A DNA stretch of 40,634 nucleotides, from assembly GCA_028714235.1 (NCBI GenBank), contig JAQTMQ010000009.1, forward strand, positions 1 through 40,634, given 5' to 3'. Positions 11,189 through 18,502 of this stretch are shown here, piece by piece. Source of the DNA: Candidatus Iainarchaeum sp. (GTDB lineage Archaea > Micrarchaeota > Micrarchaeia > Burarchaeales > Fermentimicrarchaeaceae). The first letter of the stretch is position 1; each line of letters starts with the position of its first letter. The translations under genes were made by a program, and so were the position numbers. The notes under the pieces are model-generated. The model saw only the letters and a program-made list of their open reading frames with translations. It did not search any database and had not been told where the DNA came from.

Positions 11189-11854
11189 TCAACCCTTGAA
11201 GGACAGGTGCAGGAACAGGTGGTGCCTGTCGAACGGCTCGAGCCCGAGCCTCTGCCTCACCTCAAACGCGGCCGAAAGCCGCCCGATTGCCTCCTCGTAG
11301 ACCTCGGAGGGCCGCCTTGAGACGTCGATGCTTTGCGCCTTGACCGCCATGAGCGCGCTCCCTCCCGCCTTCAGGAACATGCGCGCGTTCGAAAGCATTA
11401 TCTCGGCTTGCGACGGGTCGGCTACGTCCTCGTAAATTATGTCCACTTTTCCCTTAATATATTCCGCGTACTGCCCGGGCTGCCTCGCGTCGCCCATTAT
11501 CGGGACCATGTTCTCGCGCGCCATCGCGACGTTCAGGAGGTCGCGCATCGAGCGCGGCGCGAACTCGACGCAGTAGACCGCGCCCTTCGGCCCCACGATG
11601 TCGGAAACGTGGCTCGCCGTCGTGCCGCTCGCCGCGCCGAGGTAGAGGACCCTTGAGCCGGGGGCGACCGGAAGCACGCCCAGGCCCTTGAGGATTGCGG
11701 CGGAAAGCTTGCTCCTGAACGGGTCCCACGAGCGGTATTCCGCGCCCCTTTCGGAGTACAGCCGCTCTCCGTAAACGCGCCTTCCGGGCGCGAGGCTCTT
11801 CGTCGCGAGCATGCCGCGGAAACGGTACACGCCGGGAAATTTTTCTTCTGGCAA
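11189..11854 (-). CDS. flpA: Fibrillarin (C/D box snoRNP 2'-O-methyltransferase)
   Basis: The SAM-dependent methyltransferase of archaeal C/D ribonucleoproteins, which adds 2'-O-methyl groups to rRNA and tRNA under guide RNAs. Family signatures are clear: ATKSLAPGRRVYGERL, YRSWDPFRSKLSAAILKGL, the SAM loop VLYLGAASGTTASHVSDIVG, VYCVEFAPRSMRDLL, and IYEDVADPSQAEIML. The start is taken as TTG at 11854, giving 221 residues (MPEEKFPGVYRF...), with a GGAG about ten bases upstream. The first ATG (11812) would remove part of the conserved N-terminal strand. Further extension runs through tRNA-Lys and is not coding. Nop5, the usual neighbour, is not in this window. Confidence 0.92.
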   Translation of the reverse strand: MPEEKFPGVYRFRGMLATKSLAPGRRVYGERLYSERGAEYRSWDPFRSKLSAAILKGLGVLPVAPGSRVLYLGAASGTTASHVSDIVGPKGAVYCVEFAPRSMRDLLNVAMARENMVPIMGDARQPGQYAEYIKGKVDIIYEDVADPSQAEIMLSNARMFLKAGGSALMAVKAQSIDVSRRPSEVYEEAIGRLSAAFEVRQRLGLEPFDRHHLFLHLSFKG

Positions 11855-11880: not shown

Positions 11881-12031
11881 CGGGCCCGAGGGGATTTCCA
11901 TTCGTCCAAACCGTTTCGGGGGGTTTGGGCGGTGACGGACTAAGGGGGCGAAGCCCCCTTTGGCTGTCAATTTGAACCCCTGGCTTGCGGATTAAAAGTC
12001 CGCCACTCTGGCCAAGCTGAGTTACGGGCCC
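11881..12031 (-). tRNA. tRNA-Lys(TTT) with T-loop intron
   Basis: On the minus strand, exons 12031-11971 and 11894-11881 give a 75-base tRNA. The acceptor is GGGCCCG/CGGGCCC with G73. The D-arm ACTC/GAGT has loop AGCTTGGCCA. The anticodon stem GCGGA/TCCGC is perfect with anticodon TTT. The variable loop is AAGCC, and the T-arm is AGGGG-TTCAAAT-CCCCT. The T-arm closes only if 76 bases are removed from inside the T-loop. The anticodon loop itself is uninterrupted. Four thymines follow the 3' end. Confidence 0.9.
11895..11970 (-). other. 76-nt non-canonical intron at T-loop position 59/60
   Basis: The four bases AAAT occur at both ends, so the exact cut is ambiguous by a few bases. The best bulge-helix-bulge uses the T-stem as outer helix, TTCA (11976-11973) paired with TGGA (11901-11898) as the 4-bp middle helix with one wobble, and bulges AA^T on both sides. 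This places the intron between positions 59 and 60, a site known for archaeal non-canonical tRNA introns. Inside is a strong hairpin AAGGGGG-CTTCG-CCCCCTT (11942-11960) and a CCAAAC/GTTTGG stem. Confidence 0.8.
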
Positions 12032-12058
12032 GCCGCGGGGTAAAGTTGCCCACCCTGA

Positions 12059-12066
12059 ATTTAAAA
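12059..12066. promoter_or_regulatory. TATA element between tRNA-Lys and the 12090 gene
   Basis: The run atttaaaa reads as a TATA box both ways. Leftward the predicted start is about 12037, six bases before the tRNA-Lys 5' end. Rightward it is about 12088, making the ATG at 12090 leaderless. Confidence 0.55.
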
Positions 12067-12089
12067 GCCATGCGGGCAAATAATTGGCG

Positions 12090-17392: not shown

Positions 17393-18502
17393 TCAGGGCA
17401 GGAACTTCTTTTTCCCCATCTTTTCCCGCAGGTATTCGCCGACGAAGGAAAGCCTCTGCCCCTGGAGCGCGTCCTGCTCGATTTTCCTCCTCGACTTTAT
17501 GACTGCCTTGAGCTCGACCACCCACTCCTTGTGCCTCGCAATCCAGGGGTAGGCGAGCATCTCCTCCGCGCGCTTGACGTCAACGTCCTTCGCCTTTATG
17601 GTGAGCTTGTTCAGGAAGTCGTAGTCCTTCAGGTCCTGCATTGTCATGCCGATGAAGCGCGCCTCCGGCGTCGCGATGTCGTTCGCGAGGTAGGCGAGGT
17701 TTATGGAGCCCGTCTTAATCGCCCAGTAGATGTACCAGCCCCACGCGTCGTTGTCCGTGAAGACGATTACGGGCAGCTTCCTGTTCGCAAGCTTCCTGAT
17801 GAGGCGCCTGCAGCCCCTGCTCGCCTGCCCTTTCGGCGTGACGAGGATGCAGTTCTCCTTCTTCCAGAACTTGTCCTCGTTGAGCCGCTGCCAGAGCGCG
17901 TCCTTTTCCACCACGAGCACCCAGTCCGCGTCCACGGAAACGAAGTCCATCCCGTTGTCCACGTCGGAAGGCACCATCCAGCCGCTCCTGCCCTGCTTGG
18001 CGCAGTCAATCTCCGTCTTCTCGCCGCCGAACTTGTCCATGAGCACCATGCTTCCCGCGACCACGCCCTTCCTGTCCGTGTTCAGGTTCAGGTCCTCGCG
18101 CTTCAGCTTCAGCGCGACCTCCAAGTCCTCTATGAGCGGGTTGCTTTCCTCCTGCTCGCTGAAAAGCTCCTCGTCGAACTCCTCGCCGAGCGAATACTTC
18201 AGCTGGTAGAACAGGCCCCTGATGGACGCGTGCGCATCCTCCTCCAAAAACTTCTTGCACCTGCTCGCGACCGCGACGGTCTGCATGAACTTCTTCGCCT
18301 GCGCGACGTTCACGAACGTCCTGCTCTCCGTGTTCGGGCCGAGGCGGAGGCACCCTATCGCCTCGTCGTACAGGATGTTGCTTTTAGAGCGCAGCGCGGT
18401 GTCAAACGTGGGCGAGTCGCCTCTCTCCACCTCGCCCACCATCTTCGCGCCCAGCGACTCGAGCTTCCCGAGAGCGGGCTTCCTTTCCGTTGCCGCAGCC
18501 AT
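17393..18502 (-). CDS. top6A: DNA topoisomerase VI subunit A
   Basis: The Spo11-like cutting subunit of the type IIB topoisomerase, 369 residues, which forms a covalent 5' link to DNA through tyrosine. The catalytic tyrosine lies in SIRGLFYQLKYSL, on the winged-helix domain. The Toprim domain shows VLVVEKDALWQRL (acidic residue) and VIVFTDNDAWGWYIYWAIK, where the usual DGDPYG reads DNDAWG. The closing KEWVVELKAVIKSRRKIEQDAL is typical. The ATG at 18502 is preceded by ggag eight bases upstream, inside the end of top6B. A GTG at 18511 overlapping the top6B stop is the alternative. It partners with top6B immediately upstream. Confidence 0.95.
   Translation of the reverse strand: MAAATERKPALGKLESLGAKMVGEVERGDSPTFDTALRSKSNILYDEAIGCLRLGPNTESRTFVNVAQAKKFMQTVAVASRCKKFLEEDAHASIRGLFYQLKYSLGEEFDEELFSEQEESNPLIEDLEVALKLKREDLNLNTDRKGVVAGSMVLMDKFGGEKTEIDCAKQGRSGWMVPSDVDNGMDFVSVDADWVLVVEKDALWQRLNEDKFWKKENCILVTPKGQASRGCRRLIRKLANRKLPVIVFTDNDAWGWYIYWAIKTGSINLAYLANDIATPEARFIGMTMQDLKDYDFLNKLTIKAKDVDVKRAEEMLAYPWIARHKEWVVELKAVIKSRRKIEQDALQGQRLSFVGEYLREKMGKKKFLP

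Follow-up and report, generated by a model that had tools for sequence, protein, structure and literature searches.

The 40,634-nucleotide stretch of DNA analysed here (the window) encodes on its minus strand, from position 12031 to 11881, a tRNA-Lys(TTT) which is interrupted in its T-loop and reads GGGCCCG...CTTTTAA...AGGGGTTCAAA[76 nt]TCCCCTCGGGCCCG. The reading that we favour, and hold with reasonable confidence, is that this is a functional gene carrying a bulge-helix-bulge (BHB) intron, and that the core of this intron is a copy of a dispersed, mobile-like element, E1, which would be spliced out by an endonuclease of the epsilon2 type. The T-loop intron itself is of a known kind. What is new is a phylum-restricted, structured core that is found both inside and outside tRNA genes and is accompanied by insertion-like repeats.

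An earlier note on this DNA had placed a 76-nt intron at 59/60 of the tRNA, and this position is borne out by our analysis. When positions 11970-11895 are left out, the acceptor stem forms 7/7 pairs, the anticodon stem 5/5 and the T-stem 5/5, with a T-loop of TTCAAAT; the T-stem AGGGG/CCCCT pairs only once the intron is taken out. The predicted spliced junction reads TTCAAATCCCC, and ARAGORN calls a tRNA-Lys(ttt) from the intron-removed gene. As the note had anticipated, standard searches miss the gene because the intron interrupts the tRNA: ARAGORN reported no tRNA in the window and none in the unspliced gene, and Rfam gave no match in the window at its gathering cut-off, with RF00005 reaching 24.8 bits at the gene against a cut-off of 29. 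Annotation of tRNAs in Micrarchaeota therefore misses or truncates genes. A second intact tRNA-Lys(TTT) gene, which with this copy unexpressed would in the note's view have spoken against the reading, was not found in the 91.8%-complete genome, where the stretches around matches were read and the tRNA list is partial.

The BHB drawn in the earlier note, with a TTCA/TGGA helix and AA^T bulges, is recovered as the RNAfold minimum of the T-arm plus intron, which contains the T-stem, this helix and two 3-nt bulges (z = -2.64; 1/200 shuffles as good). It is a relaxed BHB, in which the inner helix h' is substituted by a two-hairpin junction made up of the E1 hairpin and of CCAAACC paired with GGTTTGG. 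A restored cloverleaf, together with two 3-nt bulges and a 4-bp helix, identifies an archaeal BHB tRNA intron at a non-canonical position, and from the sequence we infer that the gene is functional and that its intron is excised by the host's epsilon2 endonuclease. The features are collected in Table 1.

Table 1. Features of the interrupted tRNA-Lys(TTT) gene and its surroundings, in window coordinates
Feature	Position	Strand	Basis
Whole pre-tRNA, tRNA-Lys(TTT) with T-loop intron	11881..12031	-	Sequence; ARAGORN on spliced form; RF00005 24.8 bits at 12031-11973
5' exon, acceptor 5' strand to nucleotide 59, ending ...GGGGTTCAAA	11971..12031	-	Sequence
Intron, 76 nt, at 59/60	11895..11970	-	T-stem closure only without intron
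3' exon TCCCCTCGGGCCCG	11881..11894	-	Sequence
BHB middle helix, exon side TTCA (nt 54-57), then bulge AA^T	11973..11976	-	Splice geometry, RNAfold
BHB middle helix, intron side TGGA, then bulge AA^T	11897..11900	-	Splice geometry, RNAfold
E1 core (TGACAGCCAAAGGGGGC..CCCCCTTAGTCCGTCACCGCCCAAACCCCC): hairpin P1 with conserved mismatched segment, and conserved CCGCCCAAACCCC strand	11919..11969	-	Covariance model, covariation
Putative TATA-like promoter GGCTTTTAAATT, ~30 nt upstream of tRNA	12058..12069	-	Sequence, by eye
Fibrillarin gene, just downstream of tRNA	11189..11851	-	Pfam PF01269 3.5e-84

The same splice geometry recurs across the class, from which we collected 26 T-loop introns; in 23 of them all 4 bp of the middle helix form in the register predicted. 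A cut at 59/60 fits 20 of these introns (4 bp in 17, 3 bp in three) and a cut at 58/59 fits the other six, all with 4 bp. Given a chance of ~1/64 per register that a random tetramer fits, and allowing a factor of two since the register was picked after the sequences had been viewed, this corresponds to P ~6e-32 for 26 introns that are not all independent. This genome alone has at least seven T-loop introns, in the tRNAs Lys(TTT), Lys(CTT), Arg(TCT), Gly(TCC), Gly(CCC) and Arg(GCG) and in a tRNA at G000:C6, and its relatives carry more, so that the rarity outside Crenarchaeota which the earlier note had ascribed to such introns does not extend to this setting. The introns of Gly(TCC) and Gly(CCC) are identical to each other, and tRNA-Arg(TCT) (L107; G000:C17, about 18290-18480) apparently has two introns, at 29/30 and, with E1, at 59/60. 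Position 59/60 is among those known for non-canonical archaeal tRNA introns (PMC4090602). Our intron resembles these in its T-loop position, its BHB junction and its need for an endonuclease of broad specificity, but differs in that it holds a conserved, covarying element which is also present outside tRNA genes.

The type of endonuclease, which the note had expected to be informative, proved to be so. The host genome (1.04 Mb in 43 contigs) is that of a Micrarchaeota relative, in agreement with the suspicion that it was not crenarchaeal, and it encodes a single EndA of 388 aa on a contig other than that of the tRNA. Residues 18-388 align with the epsilon2 endonuclease of ARMAN-2 (4fz2, E=6.7e-137), the catalytic domain lies mid-chain (205-288), and Y235, H250, K280/281 and the loop lysine K160 align with ARMAN-2, in which the catalytic residues are Y236, H251 and K282 and the loop lysine is K161 (PMC6379350). 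One chain of ~390 aa with alphaN, alpha and betaC units, carrying the catalytic Tyr/His/Lys and the loop lysine, is the hallmark of an epsilon2 enzyme. By sequence, the only splicing endonuclease of this genome is of the broad-specificity ARMAN-2 type, and it differs from the ARMAN-2 enzyme (4fz2; PMC12397907, PMC6379350) in sequence divergence only. Epsilon2 enzymes are reported to cleave non-canonical introns (PMC4033280; PMC12397907), and a T-loop intron is therefore unsurprising in a genome where this is the sole endonuclease. The epsilon protein was matched in 26 of the 28 class genomes tested, full-length or near full-length in most (the two without a match are 77% and 55% complete), which would permit T-loop introns across the lineage.

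The core of the intron, E1, has the form NNNCAGCCCAAGGGGG-loop-CCCCCTTAGTCCGN'N'N'ACCGCCCAAACCCCC and is a structured element some 50 nt long, to which covariance model R1 gives 79.3 bits at the tRNA-Lys(TTT) intron (11914-11971). In an alignment of 58 distinct copies fitted to the model, 96.8% of the paired cells hold standard pairs and there are 97 double-sided changes, a number equalled in 0 of 500 shuffles and set against 0-20 in slid controls. A MAFFT alignment (A2) gives a like result; it replaced an alignment, A1, that misplaced copies with long loops. E1 is a covarying structure. Even within its mismatched segment one pair varies between G-C, A-U and C-G, whilst the unpaired stretches AGTCC and CCGCCCAAACCCC are invariant and the loop length and 3' flank vary freely. 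In some copies (L097, L098, L120, L122, L130, L132, L135 and L138) the first hairpin is separated from the CCGCCCAAACCCC strand by one or two additional hairpins. Searched with Rfam at E up to 1, the E1 loci matched tRNA models only.

Within this genome E1 occupies T-loop introns of three tRNAs, Lys(TTT), Lys(CTT) and Arg(TCT), and several tRNA isotypes carry E1 introns in G136 and G215. Transposition of tRNA introns would be expected to leave homologous introns in more than one tRNA gene of a genome, and this pattern is present. A 22-nt E1 pattern matched six of 60 genomes, this one included, and its reversed control none of 60. When 84,980 genomes were scanned for exact matches, almost all fell in Micrarchaeota, those elsewhere having a low score or lacking the left half. 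Of 295 class genomes, 23 contain E1 according to the covariance model, with 1-13 copies per genome and E-values to 1e-18, and it was not detected in the remaining 272; a phylum-wide search returned nearly the same genomes, with no gain. E1 was not found in any of seven same-family relatives searched. Matches in viral contigs (<=19.4 bits) and in bacterial genomes (<=23.4 bits) were rejected as chance.

We examined 74 copies, of which 18 lie in tRNA T-loops and 56 elsewhere, 53 of the latter outside long ORFs. The upstream neighbour is on the same strand in 24 cases and on the opposite strand in 29, with no overall strand preference. None of the examined copies lies in a tRNA in the two richest genomes, G086 (13 copies) and G069 (nine). 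In T-loop introns the 5' end of E1 coincides with the 5' splice site, and free copies are without the intron's 3' GGTTTG..TGAAAA part. Seven free copies (L081, L087, L089, L119, L036, L097 and L140) begin no more than 3 nt from where an ORF on the same strand has its stop codon, this codon often being E1's own TGA.

Signs of insertion accompany some of these copies. Direct repeats of 21-50 nt flank 11 of the 74, the left repeat ending 0-7 nt from the 5' end of E1 in one run and 0-6 nt in another with different windows, and score 16-40 against 11 for the 99% level of swapped flanks; three pairs are exact (33, 38 and 40 nt). Two copies above the threshold, L121 and L128, one from each run, score 13-13.5 and were left out of the 11. 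In five copies (L082, L100, L114, L123 and L127) the repeat consists of part of a tRNA gene, and the tRNA sequence runs on past the right repeat. Flanking direct repeats were absent from the T-loop copies. Among free copies with repeats, no two have the same sequence from E1 to the right-hand repeat, which leaves the 3' end of the unit undefined. An intronless counterpart of our gene is found in G002, of the same family, where an uninterrupted tRNA-Lys(TTT), 88% identical, is followed by a fibrillarin-like start (L171; recognised by eye).

Candidates for the mover of E1 were also considered. Y1_Tnp and RVT_1 had no matches in this genome. A Y1 transposase occurs in 8 of 22 genomes with E1 and in 1 of 22 without (p = 0.02, the genomes being related and not independent), and RVT_1 in 6 of 22 and 2 of 22, respectively; E1 was absent beside the transposase and reverse transcriptase genes examined in relatives. 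We consequently rejected an IS200/IS605 or REP-like element moved by a Y1 transposase; a reverse transcriptase likewise showed no link to E1 at the loci examined. As to features of a retroelement, the variable 21-50 nt repeats are seen, and the difference in RVT_1 has p = 0.24.

Other explanations of E1 need to be weighed against a mobile element. The one we take most seriously, although we consider it unlikely, is that E1 spread mainly by copying of introns between tRNA genes, either by recombination or by way of reverse-spliced RNA, as has been suggested for Thermoproteales, with the copies outside tRNAs being stray excised introns. The coincidence of its 5' end with the T-loop 5' splice site and the related introns held by several tRNAs of one genome are in line with this, but the absence of tRNA copies among those examined in G086 and G069, the genomes with most copies, and the lack of the 3' part of the intron in free copies are not, and recombination between tRNAs is not expected to give long direct repeats. 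Guide RNAs are carried by archaeal tRNA introns, and E1 might accordingly be a functional small RNA, guide or regulatory, made from tRNA introns as host transcripts and from stand-alone genes. Whilst strong covariation and the invariant unpaired stretches are what such an RNA might show, we regard this as improbable, and more so than copying between tRNAs, given that E1 is missing from most class genomes, including all the same-family relatives searched, that its copy number ranges from 0 to 13, that its loop and 3' flank are free to vary, that direct repeats flank some copies and that Rfam finds only tRNA there.

Seven of the 56 non-tRNA copies begin where an ORF on their own strand has its stop codon, which could hint at a terminator of transcription, or a 3'-end element, passed on together with its genes; the near-even split of neighbour strands and the presence of E1 inside tRNA genes make this very improbable. 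Hardest to sustain is the view that this is an ordinary BHB tRNA intron and that E1 matches elsewhere are chance GC-rich hairpins. Introns at 59/60 are indeed known (PMC4090602) and epsilon2 enzymes do accept non-canonical introns (PMC4033280), but the blank reversed control, the E-values of the covariance model search and the near-confinement of exact matches to Micrarchaeota already contradict a chance hairpin.

E1 is thus best read as a dispersed element, probably mobile, which would be kept in tRNA genes since the epsilon2 endonuclease can splice it out. Its mobile-like traits are its many copies, its patchy occurrence, the lack of relation among the sites it occupies, the long direct repeats at some copies and the intronless orthologous site. 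Units of E1 would insert at many unrelated sites, and one landing in the sense direction after TTCAA(A) of a T-loop would be spliceable as a BHB intron; removal by EndA and a ligase would then let the insertion persist, and sense T-loop copies may survive for this reason. That E1 transposes by way of an insertion machinery, and that the free copy came first and the intron later, we infer from the copies and their surroundings. E1 is not required for a T-loop intron, because introns free of it occupy the same 59/60 position in Gly(TCC), Gly(CCC) and Arg(GCG) here (L004, L005 and L009) and in tRNA-Lys of G038 and G030 (L176 and L181); it is therefore one source among others.

For the origin of non-canonical archaeal introns, E1 suggests one concrete way in which tRNA introns could come about. 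As copies of the intron core lie outside tRNA genes too, some of them bearing marks of insertion, and as an orthologue lacks the intron, intron gain becomes directly testable. In its account of Thermoproteales, PMC4090602 gives intron transposition as inferred and its mechanism as unknown. The 2010 study of that transposition, as cited in PMC4090602 and PMC4033280, resembles our case in that several tRNA genes of a single genome have similar introns; set against what is cited of it, the phylum and enzyme type here are different, and free copies, some with 21-50 nt repeats, provide a candidate source and an insertion mark. In the model put forward for tRNA disruption by a mobile element in Caldiarchaeum (PMC3293823), a tRNA fragment, an insert and an intact tRNA likewise follow one another, and tRNA sequence forms direct repeats, although the insert there is plasmid-like and has a gene for a recombinase and the unit here has no reading frame of its own.

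A broader proposal can be put forward tentatively, as one that we would rate slightly more doubtful than probable. Micrarchaeota may contain families of very small, structured mobile elements, E1 and the E2 described below, which would insert with long target duplications and a preference for tRNA genes and would become introns because an epsilon2 endonuclease removes them. Such elements would be to archaea what introners are to eukaryotes, and non-canonical tRNA introns would arise from them directly. Eukaryotic introners are mobile elements that produce spliceosomal introns. The shared idea is that of insertions removed as introns, but the setting here is archaeal, with BHB splicing by a protein endonuclease and no spliceosome, and the likeness is an analogy only.

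A second dispersed element, E2 (AACCCTTTT-loop-AAAAGCGTTNACGGAAAA), was also observed, in anticodon-loop, D-loop and T-loop tRNA introns as well as outside tRNAs. Its pattern has 12 matches in this genome (G000; e.g. C14:2898, C34:1825 and C6:38726; loci L014, L022 and L164) and 24 in G002. Two copies, L149 and L153, lie inside rRNA-like sequence (..GAGTCCGTGAAA^CAACCC..) and are possibly rRNA introns.
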